Shown here piece after piece: positions 3,014 through 10,489 of a stretch of DNA of 64,000 nt. The stretch spans positions 4,247,095-4,311,094 of the forward strand of contig NZ_CP076718.1 in NCBI RefSeq assembly GCF_011682235.2. The letters are read 5' to 3'. This DNA is from Rhodocaloribacter litoris. Lineage in GTDB: Bacteria; Bacteroidota; Rhodothermia; Rhodothermales; ISCAR-4553. Within the stretch, counting starts at the first letter, position 1. Each line of letters opens with the position of its first letter. Under the pieces are notes generated by a model that ran no database searches, was not told the origin of the DNA, and saw only the letters and a list, made by a program, of their open reading frames with translations. The position numbers were made by a program, and so were the translations under genes.

Positions 3014-3204
3014 AACCGACACAGACCGCCATGGATGCGGCGAGCATTTTTCTGGTAGACGATCATCCCATCGTGCGAGAAGGACTCTTCCGGCTCATCG
3101 ACCGGGAGCCGGATCTGGGGGTCTGCGGGGAGGCGGAAGACGCGGCCGGCGCCCTCGACGGGCTGGCCCGCACCAGCCCGGACGTGGTGGTGGTCGACCT
3201 CTCC

Positions 3205-3214
3205 CTCAAAGGAT
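3205..3214 (+). repeat. Left copy of 10 bp target-site duplication
   Basis: CTCAAAGGAT directly before the left inverted repeat of the insertion sequence. It is identical to 4733-4742 and falls within the receiver domain coding sequence. Confidence 0.95.
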
Positions 3215-4732
3215 CTTACCTTTACCCACAAATCAGGAGGGGTGAAAGACGAGCCAGGCGGAGGCGATATCGGTGAGACGTTGCCAGCCGCGCCAGAGCA
3301 CAGTGACACCCGGAGGCCCATCGCTTTTGCGAGCCAGAAAGCCGCCCAGCCGGGCGATCCACAGGACCACCTGGCCCACCGTGGGCGGCCGGGCAGGCAC
3401 CTGCTGCGTCTTGTGGTGGAAGGCATACAGAGCCCGCCACTCATGCTCGGCCAGCACCAGCGTGCAGGGCACATCAGGCGCATGACGGGCCACCAGGGTC
3501 ATCCAGAAAAGACGCCAGGCTATGATGCTGAACAGGGCCAGATAGGGCATCAGACGCTCCACGCTGGCCAACTGGGCTTTTTCCACACGGCATCCCGATT
3601 TGAGCACCTTGTGATAGACCTCAATCTGCCAGCGCAGGCCGTACCACCGGATCCGCTCCACGGCGTCGGCAAAACGATGCACCGGCACCGTGCTCAAAAG
3701 AAGCCAGCACAAAGGCGGGTCCTCCGCGGGCGGGGCCTCCTCTTGCACCAGCACCGCATAGAGCGGCATATCGCCCATCTTTTTGCGCAGGTGCCGAGGG
3801 GCTTTCAAGCTCACAGGCGCAAAGCGCACCGTGACCGAGGCCTGGCGTTTCGGCTTCCCTTTGCGGGCGGGGACGAGCACCTGCAACTGCCCGCACGCCG
3901 CTTGCCGGCCCATCACCTCCCAGAGCCGCCCCACTTCGGGTGCACAGACGGAGCGGTTCTGGGCGGCTCGCACCAGCAGGTCGGTCTCCAGGGTGCGGGC
4001 CTGGTGAAAAAGCTCAAAAAGGTCGGACTCGCTGTCGCCGATGGTGATGAGCTGGGCCTCGGGGGGAACGACGGCCTGGGTCTGTTGCAGGGCCTGGAGC
4101 CACTTGGAACTTTCCTTCTCTTCGATGGGCAGCTTGCGTCGTTCGTCTGCGGTGCGCTGGTGCATCGTGGGGGGGCGCACCCAGATGGCCTGACCGGCCA
4201 ATCCGAGCGGAAGGCCCTGCTCGGTCATGAGCAGGCTGGTGTGCATGACTATGCCGGACAGGTTCTGCTGCGCGGTGCCGATGGGTCCGAGCCCCTTTGT
4301 ACTGGGATGATGGGTATAGTTCAGGTAGGTCGTATCCTGAATGGCAAAGAGCCGTTTGTGCCCCTGGGCCCGCTCCCGCGTACGGCGATAATGGGGCGCC
4401 CGGATCTTCTCGGCGGTCGTTTTGGCATTGTCGAAGAGCCGGTAGGCGGCCTTGGTGTCGGCCCAATCCGCACAGGCCTGATTGATCGACACCGAAGGCC
4501 TGGCCGCCAGTTTGGCGCCGGTGTCGAGCAGTCGCCGGTCCAGGCGCTTGTCGCCCAGCGCCATGTCGTGCAATTCATGCACAAGCCAGGTGGAGAGTTC
4601 ATCGACCTCAGGGAGGTCTGGGATTGCTTCCGTATCCATCGGGGGGCTCCTCTTCAATGGCTTCGATGGGGTAAAAGGTTATTTGATCAGCATCCTTCTG
4701 CTAATCTCACGGCACTTGTGGGTAAAGGTAAG
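3215..4732. mobile_element. Complete IS4-family (Tn5/IS50-like) insertion sequence, 1518 bp
   Basis: The element is bounded by perfect 17 bp terminal inverted repeats, CTTACCTTTACCCACAA, at 3215-3231 and (inverted) 4716-4732. It is flanked by a 10 bp direct repeat CTCAAAGGAT at 3205-3214 and 4733-4742. It carries one transposase gene on the minus strand that fills nearly all of it. Intact frame, perfect ends and an undecayed target duplication indicate recent transposition. The 10 bp duplication agrees with the 9-12 bp usual for IS4-family elements. No passenger gene is present. Confidence 0.95.
3233..4639 (-). CDS. IS4-family DDE transposase (Tn5-like)
   Basis: 468 aa from the ATG at 4639, which has a strong GAAGAGGAG ribosome site just upstream; a TTG six codons earlier is also open. 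The RNase H-like catalytic core has its first Asp in FAIQDTTYLNY, the second in LITIGDSESDLFEL, and the Glu in the YREK-type motif WQIEVYHKVLKSGCRVEKAQ. The N-terminal region ELHDMALGDKRLDRRLL with NQACADWADTKAAYRLF is the DNA-binding domain typical of Tn5-type transposases. The stop codon lies one base inside the left inverted repeat (3215-3231). Length and motifs match a complete, probably active enzyme that cuts the 17 bp ends and inserts with a 10 bp stagger. Confidence 0.95.
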   Translation of the reverse strand: MDTEAIPDLPEVDELSTWLVHELHDMALGDKRLDRRLLDTGAKLAARPSVSINQACADWADTKAAYRLFDNAKTTAEKIRAPHYRRTRERAQGHKRLFAIQDTTYLNYTHHPSTKGLGPIGTAQQNLSGIVMHTSLLMTEQGLPLGLAGQAIWVRPPTMHQRTADERRKLPIEEKESSKWLQALQQTQAVVPPEAQLITIGDSESDLFELFHQARTLETDLLVRAAQNRSVCAPEVGRLWEVMGRQAACGQLQVLVPARKGKPKRQASVTVRFAPVSLKAPRHLRKKMGDMPLYAVLVQEEAPPAEDPPLCWLLLSTVPVHRFADAVERIRWYGLRWQIEVYHKVLKSGCRVEKAQLASVERLMPYLALFSIIAWRLFWMTLVARHAPDVPCTLVLAEHEWRALYAFHHKTQQVPARPPTVGQVVLWIARLGGFLARKSDGPPGVTVLWRGWQRLTDIASAWLVFHPS

Positions 4733-4742
4733 CTCAAAGGAT
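4733..4742 (+). repeat. Right copy of 10 bp target-site duplication
   Basis: CTCAAAGGAT directly after the right inverted repeat of the insertion sequence. It is the second copy of 3205-3214. Confidence 0.95.
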
Positions 4743-5315
4743 CGAGCGGGCTCGATCTGATCCGGGACATCAAGGCCCGCTGGCCCGGGATGAAGGTGCT
4801 CGTGCTCTCGATGTACGACGAGGCCTATTACGCCGAACGAGCCCTCCGCGCCGGTGCGATGGGATACGTCATGAAACAGGAACCCCCGCGTACCGTCCTC
4901 GATGCGATTCGGCAGGTACGAGCCGGCGAAGTATATGTGAGCCGCTCCGTCGCCAGCCGGGTGTTGCAGGGTATGGCCGGGGCTGCCCGTCCGGCCCCGG
5001 ATGCACTGCTGGAGCGCCTGAGCGACCGGGAATTGCAGGTGTTCCACATGATCGGCGAGGGCCTCAGCTATCCGGAGGTTGCCGCCCGGCTCTCTCTGAG
5101 CGTGAAGACCGTGGAGTCGCACGTCGAACGCATCAAGGAGAAACTGGCCATGAACAGCGGGCGCGAGCTGTTGCTCCGGGCCGTCGAATGGGTACTCCGA
5201 ACCCAGCGGTGAGGGCTCGTTCGACCGGCGTCATCGTGCGCGTTTCACATGGCCCAATATGGTTGCTTTCCCGGGGGGCGCTTTCGCGGGCCCCCATCTC
5301 GGCGACCGCCACGGT

Positions 5316-5347
5316 AAAAGGGCCCCGCGGCTTTGGCTACGGGGCCC
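5316..5347 (-). terminator. Rho-independent terminator for the haem/chelatase operon
   Basis: On the minus strand GGGCCCCG (5347-5340) pairs with CGGGGCCC (5327-5320) around a 12 nt loop and is followed by TTTT. It lies 50 bp past the stop of the CbiX-type gene and between two convergent transcripts. Confidence 0.7.
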
Positions 5348-5396
5348 CGGCGATGTCGGATTGGCGGCTGGAGGCAGGGGCTGACCGCGCGGGGGT

Positions 5397-7115
5397 TCAA
5401 TGCCGGGCGCTGGTGACGGTGTCCCTACCGTCCATCAGGCGGGCGATGCCGTCTTCGATCATGGCTTCGAGCCACCGGGTGAAGGCCGGGTGGGGGGCGA
5501 AGCCCTCGCCGTAGCGGTACGTCAGGCCGTCCAGATACTGCGCCGCGGGGCCGGTGGCGGCCGTGCGGGCGGGCAGGACGATGGCCGTGCCGCCGTCTCG
5601 GGACGCCTCCTCCACCATGGCGCGGATCGTGCGGACGGCCGCCTCGCGCTTGTCGGGCCAGTCTTCCCGCCAGGTGTGGGCCTTCACAGCCCGGAAGTGT
5701 GTGCCCGTCTCGCTCGCCACGAGGGCGTCGATGGTGGCGGCCAGGGTCTCCAGGTCACGGATCCAGGCGGCGTTCGCCGCATCGTCGAAGGTGCCGTGGG
5801 CGAGCAGGATGAGGGTCTCGCGGGCGGGGTCGGTGCTGAGTGCGCGGGCCCGGTCGGCCAGGGCCCGGGCAAAGAGCGGGTGCGTACCCACCCCGCCCAG
5901 CGTGACGAAGCGCAGGTGGCTGGCGATGCGGTCCGGGAAGCCGCGGCCGAACTCGGGGCGCAGCCCCAGAATGTATTCGCCCTGCTCACGGAAGCTCTCC
6001 TCCCGCCCGAAGATGCGGACGACGACGGCCGCCCGCATTCCGGCCGCCTCCAGGCGACGCACGGCCCGCTCGACGACGGCCGGGTCCATCATGGAGAACG
6101 CCTCCTCGATCCGGTACCGGTCGCGCAGCGGAGCGATCCCCGCACGCATCGTCTCGTTCCAGTCGTAGTCGGAGCCGTGCGGCACCACGATGACGCCGAT
6201 CTGATTCCTCGCCAGCGGGCGGTAGGTGTTGGCGGTGCGGACGAGCCAGCGGCGGATGTTCGGGTGGGGCAGCAGGTCCTTTCCGTCAAAGCGGAGGCGG
6301 TCGGTGGCCGGGCCATGTGCGCCGTGCCCGCCGTGGTGTCCGTGGCCGCCCCCGGCCCCCAGCGCTCGGAGCAGGCGGTTCCAGTCGGACATCATCGTCG
6401 TCAGCCGGGGTGCCAGGTTGAAGGGCACGAGGAGGACCGTCCGGTCGGCCGGCACCGTCTCCACGGCGGCGCGGGCCGTCTCCGGGCCGGTGCCGGCTCC
6501 TTCGGCCGCCAGGGCGCCGTCGTACGTCACCACCACGTCGCCGCCGGCCAGCCCGTGACGGGCCACGGCACGCTGCACCATCGTCTGGAGGGCCGTCCGG
6601 ATGGCTCCGGCTCCGGCCGGATCGGCGGCGCCGCCGGCCACGAGCACCAGATGCTCGGCGCCGGGATGCCGGACGAGCGCCGCGACCCGGTCGAACAGGA
6701 TCTCCTCGGCCAGGTAGCTCGCGCCCAGCGGTTCGGCATGGCGCAACGCAACCGCCCTGCCCGGACGTGCGGCCAGGCTGTCGAGCAGGCGCCGGGCCAG
6801 GGCGTAGCGCGCCTCATGCGCCGTCACGAACAGCGGGAGGACGACCACCTCCGCCGGCGCGTGCGCCGCTATCAGGGTGTCCAGCGCCCTTTCCAGGTGG
6901 TACGCCGTGCGACCGGACGTCACGAAGGCCAGGGCCGAGGCCGGCACGTCTTCCCGAAACTCGGCAAACACCTCGCGGATCTCCTCGTTGCCGAGAAAGC
7001 CCCGGTCCGGCGCCAGCACGAGGAACGCCGGCTCGGACTGGCCCAGGGCAGGACCGGCCAGTAGCAAGAGCAGAGTGAACAAGACACCCGGACGGTGGAT
7101 GCGATGGTGCAGCAT
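5397..7115 (-). CDS. Exported multi-lobe CbiX/CbiK-type chelatase
   Basis: 572 aa with a Sec signal peptide (VLFTLLLLLAGPALG, residues 11-25). The mature part seems to hold four class-II chelatase half-domains. Lobe 1 (30-145) has FLVLAPDRGF and VVVLPLFVTAHEAR; lobe 2 (150-250) has LVLVAGGAADP and VLLVPFNLAPRL. Lobe 3 (305-425) has IVVPHGSDYDWNE and lobe 4 (430-560) has LILLAHGTFDDAAN. The catalytic-type His is kept in lobes 3 (H313) and 4 (H440) but not in lobes 1 and 2. A His/Gly-rich linker (256-268) could bind metal. Known CbiX/SirB enzymes insert Co or Fe into sirohydrochlorin in the cytosol, so an exported version is unusual. It is last in the TonB receptor-HmuY operon, suggesting metal or haem handling outside the inner membrane, possibly iron removal from haem. 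That role is inference. Confidence 0.8.
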   Translation of the reverse strand: MLHHRIHRPGVLFTLLLLLAGPALGQSEPAFLVLAPDRGFLGNEEIREVFAEFREDVPASALAFVTSGRTAYHLERALDTLIAAHAPAEVVVLPLFVTAHEARYALARRLLDSLAARPGRAVALRHAEPLGASYLAEEILFDRVAALVRHPGAEHLVLVAGGAADPAGAGAIRTALQTMVQRAVARHGLAGGDVVVTYDGALAAEGAGTGPETARAAVETVPADRTVLLVPFNLAPRLTTMMSDWNRLLRALGAGGGHGHHGGHGAHGPATDRLRFDGKDLLPHPNIRRWLVRTANTYRPLARNQIGVIVVPHGSDYDWNETMRAGIAPLRDRYRIEEAFSMMDPAVVERAVRRLEAAGMRAAVVVRIFGREESFREQGEYILGLRPEFGRGFPDRIASHLRFVTLGGVGTHPLFARALADRARALSTDPARETLILLAHGTFDDAANAAWIRDLETLAATIDALVASETGTHFRAVKAHTWREDWPDKREAAVRTIRAMVEEASRDGGTAIVLPARTAATGPAAQYLDGLTYRYGEGFAPHPAFTRWLEAMIEDGIARLMDGRDTVTSARH

Positions 7116-7208
7116 GGCGGTGGATGCGAAAAGAAGGTTGCAGGGGCAGAGGAAAGGTGGAGGGGCGGGGAGCCTGAGGCGATCGCAGGCTTCGGCCGTG
7201 GGGCGTGG

Positions 7209-7571
7209 TCACGATGGACCGGGCCGGCGGGCCGGTGGGCCGAGCGTCTCCTCGAGCATCTTTTCCAGATCGAGCATGGCGGCGGCGCCGTCGAGCAGGG
7301 CATCGAGTTCCCGCACCTCTTCGGCCGTGAAGGCAAACCCGATCTGCCGGTCCGGCGTGCGCAGGTAGTGACACCGTTCCGCACAGGCAGGGCCGTTCCC
7401 ACTTGCGGAAGCCATCTCCCGGATCAGCCGTGCAAACCGGAACAGGCCCGCGGTATCGTAGGCCAGGATGATCGGCCCGAAGCAGATGTTGACCCACCGG
7501 CACCCACGGCACCGGTAGACGGCGCCGTGGGTAGTCCGGTAGATCGGTTCGAGTGGGTGCGGGCAGGGCAT
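7209..7571 (-). CDS. Small CxxC protein, DUF6686-like
   Basis: 120 aa, soluble, without signal peptide. The N-terminal third has Cys3, a CRGC pair (residues 21-24) and Cys30; the middle has CAERC (62-66). These Cys residues suggest metal binding. GAVYRCRGCRWVNICFGPI followed by a Phe-rich helix and a C-terminal leucine-rich helix (LDALLDGAAAMLDLEKML) resembles the DUF6686 family of Bacteroidota as I remember it, but I could not verify this. It lies between hmuY (28 bp upstream) and the chelatase gene (93 bp downstream) on the same strand, so it is probably part of the haem/iron operon. A cytosolic metal-binding accessory role is a guess from context. Confidence 0.7.
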   Translation of the reverse strand: MPCPHPLEPIYRTTHGAVYRCRGCRWVNICFGPIILAYDTAGLFRFARLIREMASASGNGPACAERCHYLRTPDRQIGFAFTAEEVRELDALLDGAAAMLDLEKMLEETLGPPARRPGPS

Positions 7572-7599
7572 GGGCTCGTCTCGTCAGGGGCGTGGCGGC

Positions 7600-8298
7600 C
7601 TAGTTGGTGCTCAGGTCCCGGGAGCCGTCCGGCTGGAAGACGTACTCGAAGGTGTAGTAGCGGGAGGGGTTGGCTGCCGGGTCGATCGCTCCGGGGTCCG
7701 GGTTGCCTTTGTAGTAGCTCAGGATACGCAGCTTCGCATAGCGCCCGTCGGCCGTGCGGACGACGATCGTGCGTCCGGGGATGGGCGTGACCACGTTGGT
7801 CTGGCTGTCGTAGTTGTACCAGCCGTTGCCCGAGCCGGGGCACACGGCCATCTTCGGCCCGGGCTGCCCGAAGACGGACGGGCACTCGGCCGATCCGTCT
7901 ACGCGGAAGGCGGCGTCTTCGGGGGCGGTGAGCACGTTTTCGAAGACGTCCTCGATGAGGACGGCGGCGCCTTCGCCGGGGCCGCTCGTGCCGCCGTTGA
8001 AGATCAGGTTGGTGCTCTGGAAGCCGATGTCCCAGGCGGTCGAGGCCGAGTCGGCGCGGTTTTCCTCGTCGGAGCCGAGGACGATCCGGTTTTCCCGGAG
8101 GCTGAACAGCGTGTAGCGCCCGGTGCCGGTGGGCCGTCCCGTCTGCGGGTCGATGCGGGTGGCCGGGTCGGCGGGCAGGTCGGCCACGACGGTGGCTTCG
8201 AGCGGCGGCGTTTCCTCGACGTTCGAGGTGCCGTCGCAGCCGGTGAACAGGAGCAGGGCCAGGGGCAGGAGGGCGAAAAGAAGGCGGTTCGTGTTCAT
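7600..8298 (-). CDS. hmuY: HmuY-family haem-binding lipoprotein
   Basis: 232 aa. The N-terminus MNTNRLLFALLPLALLLFTGC is a lipoprotein signal with Cys at 21. The HmuY fold is recognisable: YTLFSLRENRIVLGSDEE and STAWDIGFQSTNLIFNGGTSG in the first half, then a central NGWYNYDSQTNVVTPIPGRTIVVRTADG and AKLRILSYYKGNP, ending in YYTFEYVFQPDG. Porphyromonas HmuY is an outer-membrane lipoprotein that strips haem from host proteins and passes it to the TonB receptor HmuR. This protein is directly downstream of a TonB receptor (42 bp apart), the classical arrangement. Haem ligands vary among family members and cannot be assigned by reading; some homologues bind other tetrapyrroles. Confidence 0.88.
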   Translation of the reverse strand: MNTNRLLFALLPLALLLFTGCDGTSNVEETPPLEATVVADLPADPATRIDPQTGRPTGTGRYTLFSLRENRIVLGSDEENRADSASTAWDIGFQSTNLIFNGGTSGPGEGAAVLIEDVFENVLTAPEDAAFRVDGSAECPSVFGQPGPKMAVCPGSGNGWYNYDSQTNVVTPIPGRTIVVRTADGRYAKLRILSYYKGNPDPGAIDPAANPSRYYTFEYVFQPDGSRDLSTN

Positions 8299-8340
8299 GG
8301 ATCTATGGAAGGTTATAAGGTTATCGGGTCATGGGTGTTG

Positions 8341-10443
8341 TCAAAGGTCGATCTGGAAGCCTGCGTAGAGGCGGCGCCCGGAGAGGGCGGGTATCTGCGC
8401 CGGGCGGGTGACGTCGAACAGGTTGTCGACGCCGGCCTGGAGGCGGAGCCGTTCGAGCGGGCGGGTACGCCAGTCGTAGGTGACGGTGAGGTTCCACAGC
8501 ACATAGCCGTCGACGAACTCGTCGTCCCGGTTGGGGATGGCGTTGCCGTCCACGTCGCGGTAGCCGTAGCGCCCGCGCCAGATGCCGCGCAGGCTCAGGC
8601 CCGGCCCGTCAGAGGCGGGGCGATAGCTCAGGCCGAGCGTCCCGCTGTGCGTCGAGCGGCCGAAGAGCCCGCCGTAGTCGGACCGGCGCAGGCGCACGTC
8701 CCGCCCGGAGGCATCCCGACCGAAGACGCGCCCGTCCTCGATGGCCTCGATGATGTCCCGGTCGTGCGCCTGGAGGAACTGGTAGCTGCCGGTGATCCGC
8801 AGGGCAGGCCAGGGGGTGAAGGTGACCTCGCTCTCCAGGCCGCGCGTGTAGATCCGGTTCAGGTTGAAGTAGCTGTAGACGAAGCTGCCGTTCGTCTTGC
8901 GCGCCACCGGCTGGGTCTCGATCAGGTCGCGCACGTCGTTGTAGAAGACGTTCAGCGAGAGCGAGAGCCGGTCGAAGGGCTCGGCCGTGAGCCCGGCGTT
9001 GAGGGCGGTGGAATGCTCGGCCCGTATGGTGCCGAGGCCGGCCGGGTCGAGGTAGCGCTCCTGGATCTGCCCGGCAGCTTCGAGGGCGGCGAGGCCGTCG
9101 TGTAGCTCGACGGCGCCGAGGACGCTGTAGCCGGCCGTGGGGTTGGTGAAGCTGAGGTAGCGCTGGCGGAAGTCGGGCGCCTTGAACCCTTTGCCGAGCG
9201 AGAGGCGCACGCGCAGCCGTTCCGAGGGGCGGAGGAGCACCGCCAGCTTGGGACTGATGCGGGTGGCGTAGTCGGTGTGGACGTCCAGGCGGGCGCTGGC
9301 GTTCAGTTCGACGAGGCGTGACGGCAGCCATTCGTGCTGAAGGAACGCAAAGGCGGCGCGGGCCTCCGGTCGCTCCGCATAGCGGTCCGCGTCGAGGCGC
9401 TCTTCGATGAGGCCGGCGCCGAGGGTCGTCAGGTGCCGGAGGTCCCAGACGAGGCGGCCCTGGAGTTCGGCCTTGGCGTAGCGCTGGTCGAAGCGGTCCT
9501 GGCTGTAGAGTGTGCCGTCGTCGAGACGGAGGCGGCTCTCGGTCCGGTAGCGGGCCAGGTAGAGGTCGCCTTCGAGCGAGAGGCGCCGGGAGATCCGGGC
9601 GCGTACCGCAGGGTGCAGGCTCCAGTCGGTGCGTTCCTCGAAGCTGCGCGCCCTGGTGGAGGTGGTGCCGGAGGTGAGCGTGAGCGGGCTCTGCTGGTCC
9701 TGGTCGTTGAGGCGGGCGCCGAGGCGGAGGGTGAGGCCGTCCCGGGGCCGGGCCTCGAAGCGCAGGTCGGCGGTGTAGTCGGTGAAGGCCGGTGCGGTCG
9801 GGGCCGTCGTGGAGGCGTCTAGGTCGTACCCGTCGGAGGCATAGCGGTCGAGGAGCAGGCGCAGGCCCAGGTGCTCGTTTCCGGCCTCGGCCGTGGCCTG
9901 CAGGTCAGTGGAGGCGTGGGTGCCGTAGCGGGCGGACAGGTTGCCGCGCAGCGTGCCCTCGGGCGGGCGGGTGATCAGGTTGATGACGCCGGCCAGGGCC
10001 TCGTTGCCGTAGAGGGACGAGGTGGGGCCGCGCACGATCTCGACGCGCTCCAGCCCGGCGACGGCCAGACGCTCGAGGTCGAGCGTCCCGGCGGTGCGCC
10101 CGATGACCGGCTCGCCGTCGATGAGGACGAGCGTATAGTCCGGGTCGAAGCCCTGGATCTGTATGCCGGTGCCGTGGTCGTGCACGAGGGTCAGGCCGGG
10201 CAGCTCGGCCAGGGCGTCGGCCAGGCGCAGGCGGCCGCGCAGGGCCAGGGCCTCTGCCGTGACGACGGACACCGGCACGGCCACGTCTTCGAGCTGGCGC
10301 GGCGCCCGGGTGGCCGTCACCACCACCGGAGCCAGTTCGTACTGCCGGAGCGTGTCGGCGGGAGCGGCCTGGCGGGCCGGAGCCGGGAAGGCCAGGCCGA
10401 GGCCGGCAAGCAGGAACAGCGGCACGTGTAGCAAAGGAGACAT
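8341..10443 (-). CDS. TonB-dependent haem/siderophore receptor (HmuR-like)
   Basis: 700 aa from the ATG at 10443. The longer open frame upstream has no signal peptide, whereas this start gives MSPLLHVPLFLLAGLGLAFPAPA. The plug domain begins ELAPVVVTATRAPRQLEDVAVPVSVV and includes GIQIQGFDPDYTLVLIDGEP, RVEIVRGPTSSLYGNEALAGVINLIT and other classical plug motifs. The rest is a 22-strand barrel, ending in a terminal aromatic-rich strand (RRLYAGFQIDL). It transports a ligand across the outer membrane with TonB-ExbBD energy. As first gene of an operon with hmuY, a CxxC protein and an exported CbiX-type chelatase, its ligand is probably haem or another metallated tetrapyrrole. The promoter is overlapped by a palindrome (10451-10467), so repression by a metal-sensing regulator is likely. 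Confidence 0.92.
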   Translation of the reverse strand: MSPLLHVPLFLLAGLGLAFPAPARQAAPADTLRQYELAPVVVTATRAPRQLEDVAVPVSVVTAEALALRGRLRLADALAELPGLTLVHDHGTGIQIQGFDPDYTLVLIDGEPVIGRTAGTLDLERLAVAGLERVEIVRGPTSSLYGNEALAGVINLITRPPEGTLRGNLSARYGTHASTDLQATAEAGNEHLGLRLLLDRYASDGYDLDASTTAPTAPAFTDYTADLRFEARPRDGLTLRLGARLNDQDQQSPLTLTSGTTSTRARSFEERTDWSLHPAVRARISRRLSLEGDLYLARYRTESRLRLDDGTLYSQDRFDQRYAKAELQGRLVWDLRHLTTLGAGLIEERLDADRYAERPEARAAFAFLQHEWLPSRLVELNASARLDVHTDYATRISPKLAVLLRPSERLRVRLSLGKGFKAPDFRQRYLSFTNPTAGYSVLGAVELHDGLAALEAAGQIQERYLDPAGLGTIRAEHSTALNAGLTAEPFDRLSLSLNVFYNDVRDLIETQPVARKTNGSFVYSYFNLNRIYTRGLESEVTFTPWPALRITGSYQFLQAHDRDIIEAIEDGRVFGRDASGRDVRLRRSDYGGLFGRSTHSGTLGLSYRPASDGPGLSLRGIWRGRYGYRDVDGNAIPNRDDEFVDGYVLWNLTVTYDWRTRPLERLRLQAGVDNLFDVTRPAQIPALSGRRLYAGFQIDL

Positions 10444-10450
10444 AATTTTA

Positions 10451-10467
10451 TTTAGATCAAGTCTAAA
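10451..10467. promoter_or_regulatory. Palindromic operator TTTAGA-N5-TCTAAA upstream of the TonB receptor
   Basis: A perfect 6+6 bp inverted repeat with 5 bp spacer lies 8 bp upstream of the receptor start codon and covers the presumed -7 element. The AT-rich TTAG/CTAA half-sites recall DtxR/IdeR-family operators, though the spacing is shorter than the 19 bp consensus. A related but not identical site is at 18558-18576. Confidence 0.6.
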
Positions 10468-10489
10468 TTGCAGTTCGAAAGTATTCACA
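10458..10489 (-). promoter_or_regulatory. Probable -33/-7 promoter of the haem operon
   Basis: On the minus strand TGTG (10489-10486), a 20 bp spacer, and TAGACTTG (10465-10458) match the Bacteroidota promoter form TTTG-N20-TAnnTTTG at 3 of 4 and 7 of 8 positions. The -7 half lies inside the palindrome. Confidence 0.5.

Follow-up and report, generated by a model that had tools for sequence, protein, structure and literature searches.

The 64,000-nucleotide (nt) stretch of the Rhodocaloribacter litoris genome analyzed here (NZ_CP076718.1, assembly GCF_011682235.2, positions 4,247,095-4,311,094; hereafter the window) contains a probable haem uptake operon that ends in an exported protein with four chelatase-like lobes. 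The operon genes run head to tail on the minus strand and encode a TonB-dependent outer-membrane receptor, an HmuY-family lipoprotein, a small CxxC protein and a 572-amino-acid chelatase-fold protein for which we use the working name CHEL; the gaps between them are about 42, 28 and 93 nt. A preliminary description of this region had recognized the same gene run, and its coordinates were right. We interpret the operon as an iron-regulated haem locus and CHEL as a periplasmic haem-handling protein of chelatase fold that perhaps removes iron from haem, an interpretation that we consider about equally likely to be right or wrong. It builds on the fold and lobes of the protein, its export signal, the operon layout, an operator found across the family and the recurrent association with TonB and HmuY genes, to which the removal of iron is a hypothetical addition.

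The two-lobe beta-alpha fold of the class II chelatase superfamily (CbiX/SirB/CbiK/HemH), with its interlobe cleft, was found in CHEL by structure prediction as well as by structure comparison. An AlphaFold2 model based on 20 homologues (mean predicted local distance difference test score, pLDDT, 88.3; predicted template modelling score, pTM, 0.87) displays four beta-alpha lobes, and the C half modelled alone gave a pLDDT of 91.9 and a pTM of 0.89. Foldseek searches with the full model returned a periplasmic CbiK (2xvz) as the best match (4.4e-5). Further matches were CbiK of Salmonella (1qgo), ferrochelatases, DR2241, SirB and, at rank 21, FetB (9b86), which we take to be the same protein as IhtB of Porphyromonas gingivalis. 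The C half matched SirB (5zt7) with a template modelling score of 0.70 over the target and 0.63 over the query. Likeness to CbiX and SirB was also found in sequence profiles, where the N half resembled SirB (3e-7) and CfbA (1e-5). The Pfam model CbiX (PF01903) matched residues 42-140 at 4.8e-5, with 24 bits against a cutoff of 22; the CbiX match in the genome-scale search was under the cutoff (17.7 bits). When the profiles of the single lobes were compared with each other, lobe 1 matched lobe 3 (98.5%) and lobe 2 matched lobe 4 (97.1%), and the remaining pairs were weaker (73% for lobes 3 and 4). A two-lobe chelatase was thus duplicated as a whole. The preliminary description had suggested four lobes and proposed a structure prediction to verify them, and both the model and the lobe comparison bear this out.

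A strong hydrophobic leader was present in 54 of 62 CHEL relatives, and most of the others were fragments or frameshifted. The leader of the window protein, already noticed in the preliminary description, carries a signal peptidase I type site, cut near the ALG/QS junction, and no lipobox Cys. With a signal peptide throughout the family and a TonB-HmuY context rather than one of tetrapyrrole synthesis genes, CHEL does not fit a cytosolic enzyme of sirohaem, B12 or F430 synthesis. Within the phylum of the window CHEL was found in 39 of 394 genomes searched. A scan of bacterial genomes yielded 24 loci, in Nitrosomonas, Nitrosospira and Nitrosovibrio (Nitrosomonadaceae), Thermomonas and other Lysobacteraceae, Methylibium, a Nitrospirota metagenome-assembled genome (MAG), a Latescibacterota MAG and Bacteroidota. 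In a tree of the C half the long, four-lobe forms make up one lineage with a few shortened members inside, and the remaining short, two-lobe forms fall outside it; the branches are long, which calls for caution. We searched open-licence papers on HmuY with CbiX and on periplasmic chelatases and found no description of the CHEL family in them.

In CfbA and SirB the metal is bound by His9/10, Glu42/43 and His75/76 of one lobe, and Arg134 of SirB occupies the place of a second His9 (PMC11301274). The His pair is located in the N lobe of CbiX-L and in the C lobe of CbiK (PMC7689651). The His9 equivalents of CHEL are H313 in lobe 3 and H440 in lobe 4, the lobe 4 equivalences being read from secondary structure, and both are unchanged in all long and short relatives that have residues there. 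Nearly unchanged across relatives are also W319, N320, N448, R483, D485, P515 and G522. In lobe 1 the place of His9 is taken by an invariant Asp (D37), which together with R38, G39, F40, G42 and N43 is identical in 27/27 aligned long forms, and in lobe 2 the His is usually lost. The statement of the preliminary description that catalytic-type His residues occur in lobes 3 and 4 only is correct and holds generally among relatives. A tandem pair of CHEL paralogues was observed in the Nitrospirota MAG (L031, 4607-6397 and 7860-9593), of which the copy at 4607-6397 keeps HG in lobe 2; judging by this paralogue, the N-terminal unit may once have had a His there.

Read from the alignment, the C-terminal cleft of CHEL has a single His from each of its two lobes, which is neither the CbiX-L nor the CbiK arrangement. 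Such a placement would suit gripping haem from both faces. The label 'CbiX-type' of the preliminary description does not extend to the enzyme, as the metal site of CbiX, SirB and CfbA needs two His ligands from the same lobe, and no lobe of CHEL retains the second; because of this loss, haem demetallation by CHEL is hypothetical. The His-rich linker proposed as a metal-binding element is real (residues 258-267) and disordered in the model at 259-265, although its position between lobes 2 and 3 was seen only in the window CHEL, and a conserved role for that exact place was rejected. In most relatives a His/Met-rich loop joins lobe 3 to lobe 4, at the site of the His-rich loop of CfbA.

A perfect inverted repeat precedes the TonB gene (Table 1). 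The motif TTTAGAN5TCTAAA with at most two mismatches occurred once in the window against 0.15 expected, and with at most one mismatch at four sites in the 4.5-Mb genome, one of them that of the CHEL operon. The other three precede genes for an ATP-binding cassette (ABC) solute-binding protein, followed by a probable permease (L124), a TonB receptor with a CarboxypepD domain and a DUF4856 protein, which we read as ferric-iron, siderophore and imelysin-like genes. In the phylum of the window the operator was present at 11/12 or better in 33 of 38 loci, located before the TonB gene of the hmu operon or directly before a solo CHEL gene, while shuffled sequence rarely attained 11/12. At L080 two copies occur, one in front of CHEL and one in front of TonB-HmuY. 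Since the palindrome recurs before genes of iron-uptake type it is probably an iron operator, from which we infer iron control of the operon. No sigma-70-like promoter was found in the operon region. Classical Fur boxes before proteobacterial CHEL genes were mostly not above chance, except in the Nitrospirota MAG (matches of 17/19 at L031 and 15/19 at L054) and some Thermomonas relatives (15/19 in Thermomonas L049).

Short CHEL paralogues lacking a leader form a clade of their own (L083, L085, L088); two of the genomes concerned, G278 and G293, encode an exported long CHEL as well. This clade is also poor in operator, with no site at L085 and L088 and a 10/12 match at L083; its members are possibly cytosolic with another function.

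The nature of the cargo was approached through gene neighbourhoods and genome content. In the window the lipobox-bearing HmuY gene adjoins the TonB receptor gene, as in HmuY-TonB haem uptake loci. Relatives of the lipoprotein in the PDB are 8b6a (9.4e-13), 8b61 and 3h8t (HmuY), and its Cys21 is kept in 73 of 74 relatives. Among the phylum genomes HmuY was present in 32 of 39 genomes with CHEL and in 100 of 355 others (Fisher 6.5e-11, a value that ignores kinship). HmuY neighbourhoods were further compared in a partly hand-picked sample that was in part chosen for CHEL, with gene calls made by simple rules, so the counts are not frequencies. CHEL adjoined TonB-HmuY in 17 neighbourhoods from several families of the phylum, which supports recurrence with hmuY, a point that the preliminary description had proposed to check. 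HemS and Peripla_BP_2 took its place in 11, CobN/HmuS in 1 and two other exported CbiX-type proteins in a few; many had none of these modules. Gene orders such as TonB-HmuY-CHEL-HemS (L174, G282) and TonB ... Peripla_BP_2 ... HemS-CHEL-DUF6686-like (L057, G195) were observed, and relatives of the window TonB receptor adjoin HemS and Peripla_BP_2. HemS and ChuX are haem proteins. Because related pairs adjoin such proteins, a receptor and HmuY of the window type most likely carry haem, and the cargo of the operon, judged by gene context, is probably haem. The haem and iron context seen in the preliminary description is thereby borne out, as is its comparison with HmuS: HmuS/CobN adjoins TonB-HmuY at L150 and TonB at L131, and the search of the window's genome found no CobN (PF02514), HemS, haem oxygenase (PF01126), DUF2470 or other CbiX protein.

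Two ferrochelatase (HemH) genes occur in the window's genome (G000:C1:426044-426955 and 1307302-1308273), therefore the cell probably makes its own haem. FeoB was considered as iron importer and rejected, as the FeoB_N matches are proteins of 217-476 amino acids that we read as ordinary GTPases. Known RNA families in the operon region, a cobalamin riboswitch among them, were likewise looked for and discarded, the two matches obtained being chance matches far under gathering scores.

Table 1. Coordinates and supporting evidence for the operon, the parts of CHEL and other exported CbiX-type proteins (window positions unless a locus is given).
Feature	Position	Strand	Evidence or remarks
Operator ATTTAGA-CTTGA-TCTAAAT	10450..10468	.	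Perfect 7+7 inverted repeat, located 7-25 nt before the start codon of the TonB gene
TonB-dependent outer-membrane receptor, first gene of the operon	8341..10443	-	PF07715 + PF00593 (Plug + TonB barrel)
HmuY-family lipoprotein, lipobox C21	7600..8298	-	PF14064 1.8e-12, above cutoff
Small DUF6686-like CxxC protein, no signal peptide	7209..7571	-	DUF6686 4e-4, under cutoff
CHEL, exported four-lobe chelatase-fold protein, 572 aa	5397..7115	-	CbiX PF01903, AlphaFold2 model, Foldseek, family searches
CHEL signal peptide, residues 1-25	7041..7115	-	Hydrophobic GVLFTLLLLLA, then ALG/QS
CHEL lobe 1, residues 30-147, D37-R38-G39-F40 replaces HG motif	6675..7028	-	DSSP of model + alignment
CHEL lobe 2, residues 154-251, HG motif lost	6363..6656	-	Model + alignment
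CHEL His-rich linker HGHHGGHGAH, residues 258-267, between lobes 2 and 3	6315..6344	-	pLDDT <50 at 259-265
CHEL lobe 3, residues 306-426, HGSD..WN motif, invariant H313, M342	5838..6200	-	Model + alignment; CfbA 6m25 1.3e-6
CHEL lobe 4, residues 433-569, AHG motif, invariant H440, WREDW motif	5409..5819	-	Model + alignment
Second exported CbiX-type protein	L138:7638-8201, L139:6561-7136, L086:8172-8783		Beside TonB-HmuY; L086 also with short CHEL
Third exported CbiX-type protein	L141:7397-8305, L132:3540-4745, L133:3606-4598		Near TonB-HmuY

On these grounds the following sequence of events can be proposed. HmuY and the TonB receptor would carry haem across the outer membrane, as suggested by gene context, and CHEL, predicted from its leader to be exported, would meet it in the periplasm. 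The N-terminal lobe pair is degenerate and the C-terminal pair, lobes 3 and 4, retains the site. Haem may sit in the lobe 3/4 cleft, where H313 would approach one face and H440 the other, a placement suggested by the fold and the invariance of both residues. CHEL might then aid the exit of iron from the porphyrin, with the conserved residues R483, E/D484, D485 and M342 and the flexible His/Met-rich loop perhaps taking or passing the metal. Import of the released iron would fall to an iron transporter of the inner membrane, for which the ABC system under the same operator (L124) is a candidate. CHEL would thus take over, on the outer side of the inner membrane, the task that falls to HemS or HmuS elsewhere. 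In its boldest form the proposal makes CHEL a haem dechelatase of the periplasm, in which a duplicated chelatase of class II, with two opposed His residues in place of a pair within one lobe, would remove iron without oxygen or ring cleavage; we put this forward tentatively, as somewhat less likely to be true than false.

Several observations weigh against this proposal. The canonical metal pair is incomplete: at the place of His75, lobe 3 has F375 and lobe 4 has P523, and the invariant Met342 stands where lobe 3 would have Glu42. Chelatase activity is not known for any member of the CHEL family. Concerning the cargo, the best NCBIfam model of the receptor is TonB-hemin (4.9e-44), closely followed by TonB-B12 (1.2e-42), both under cutoff; with scores so nearly alike for haem and B12 types, the model alone cannot decide. 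The alignment of 74 HmuY relatives contains no conserved His, nor a conserved Met beyond the start, and Trp and Tyr are conserved instead. Haem-binding properties differ even between known HmuY proteins (PMC12106395). Proteobacterial CHEL genes are also found without HmuY, and the genome counts given above are not independent of phylogeny.

The main rival explanation makes CHEL a carrier or store of haem in the periplasm that has no catalytic role. H313 and H440 would hold haem in the chelatase cleft, and from there it would be passed to a transporter in the inner membrane or enter the assembly of cytochromes. It is a serious rival because the second metal-ligand His is lost: keeping both HG-type His residues without it fits axial ligation of haem more readily than insertion of a metal, and a Peripla_BP_2 haem-type binding protein takes the same operon slot in several relatives. 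However, such a carrier would be redundant at L057, where CHEL occurs together with Peripla_BP_2 and HemS, the window operon has no haem ABC transporter, and the conservation of the acidic residues D485 and E/D484 and of the His/Met-rich loop looks as if free metal is handled. We regard a carrier as less likely than not, while still deserving serious attention. It is improbable that CHEL acts not in iron supply but in the insertion or exchange of metals, such as Mn or Zn in place of Fe, in a porphyrin of the periplasm. Such a role has been proposed for FetB of P. gingivalis, a structural neighbour of CHEL; FetB is reported to produce Mn-protoporphyrin (review PMC13402209), and class II chelatases normally insert metals. 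The His pair for insertion is not intact in CHEL, though, and both the operator common to iron-uptake-type genes and the alternative neighbours HemS and HmuS point to iron acquisition. That the cargo is something other than haem, such as a corrinoid or a ferric chelate for which CHEL is the periplasmic metal chaperone, is very improbable. In its favour, the receptor has a likeness to receptors for B12 and siderophores too, proteobacterial copies adjoin other TonB receptors without HmuY, and L033 adjoins genes for a heavy-metal-binding domain and a ferritin. Against it, the operator suggests iron, TonB-HmuY relatives carry HemS, and the region has no RNA family match and so no cobalamin riboswitch.

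Some further features of the loci were recorded. In the CxxC protein C21 is kept in 17/17 and C24 in 16/17 relatives, and DUF6686-like CxxC proteins recur with CHEL or HemS in haem loci (L055, L057, L063-067, L143, L146, L149, L154). The second exported CbiX-type protein found adjoining TonB-HmuY is a single lobe of about 190-200 amino acids with GHGAP and HSE-DIP motifs. The 203-amino-acid copy at L086 was considered as a detached N half of CHEL and rejected, since it is a separate exported single-lobe protein with no significant match to the N-half profile. The third has about 300 amino acids and a likely lipobox Cys, and is divergent from the receptor in 2/3 loci. Some CHEL loci encode tandem HmuY domains, two or three per protein (L084:5514-6983, also L061). 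In the Latescibacterota MAG (L033, 5414-10188) CHEL lies between the heavy-metal-binding-domain and ferritin genes and adjoins a piece of a TonB receptor. Elsewhere in the window a Tn5/IS4-type transposase gene (3233-4657, minus strand) lies within positions 3212-4735, an element with 20-nt inverted ends and the 11-bp direct repeat CTCAAAGGATC. It apparently splits a response-regulator gene, the halves of which are readable at about 3030-3215 and 4743-5212.

Comparison with known systems shows which parts of this arrangement have precedents. IhtB/FetB (PDB 9b86) is likewise an exported protein of class II chelatase fold encoded in a TonB haem/iron uptake locus. It is a two-lobe, CbiK-type haem-binding lipoprotein with an ABC transporter in its operon and is reported not to be PgFur-regulated, whereas CHEL is CbiX/SirB/CfbA-like and four-lobed, is exported without a lipobox Cys, and has an HmuY partner and a putative iron operator. 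IhtB was proposed to extract iron from haem (PMC10913741). HmuS of Bacteroides and Porphyromonas, of CobN type, is a chelatase-like partner of TonB-HmuY outside the cytoplasm that is linked to the removal of iron from haem, but it has the unrelated class I fold and about 1450 amino acids. It has been placed in the periplasm, and the model for B. thetaiotaomicron is periplasmic iron removal that needs HmuS (PMC10100974). CbiK-P of Desulfovibrio vulgaris (2xvx/2xvz), to which the best fold match of the full CHEL model belongs, is an exported class II chelatase as well; it has two lobes, was crystallized with cobalt (2xvz) and is not known beside HmuY. By sequence profile CfbA/CbiX-S and SirB are nearest to CHEL (SirB for the N half, CfbA for lobe 3), also in the position of the His-rich loop. 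These are cytosolic biosynthetic enzymes with His9 and His75 (His10 and His76 in SirB), of which CHEL keeps the His9 equivalents only. DR2241 of Deinococcus radiodurans (2jh3), the top Foldseek match of the C half, is a multi-domain protein with chelatase-like domains; going by the PDB title only, its extra parts are other domains and not a second chelatase unit.

The idea in the preliminary description of an exported chelatase that replaces HmuS fits the gene context, but it has precedents in IhtB/FetB, the D. vulgaris CbiK and periplasmic HmuS (PMC10100974, PMC10913741). Among exported class II chelatases, IhtB/FetB in haem uptake and CbiK-P in the periplasm are already known, and so is HmuS as a chelatase-like partner of HmuY. 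New are the four lobes derived from a duplicated unit, the opposed-His arrangement, the common putative iron operator and the module-like occurrence of exported CbiX-type proteins in HmuY loci.

Work on how iron leaves haem outside the cytoplasm in Bacteroidota and their relatives has until now concentrated on gut and oral species, with HmuS and IhtB/FetB at its centre. The CHEL family offers a soluble, conserved protein from a non-pathogen with two pinpointed histidines, and its natural variants (two-lobe, four-lobe, and leaderless without a good operator) provide contrasts for haem binding and iron release. The neighbourhoods also show HmuY loci swapping among interchangeable haem modules, and a function is suggested for the exported CbiX-like proteins of Nitrosomonas, Nitrosospira and Thermomonas. 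If CHEL is indeed a dechelatase, it would add to HemS/haem oxygenase and HmuS a third route, which is under iron regulation in the phylum of the window and present also in ammonia oxidizers and other proteobacteria.

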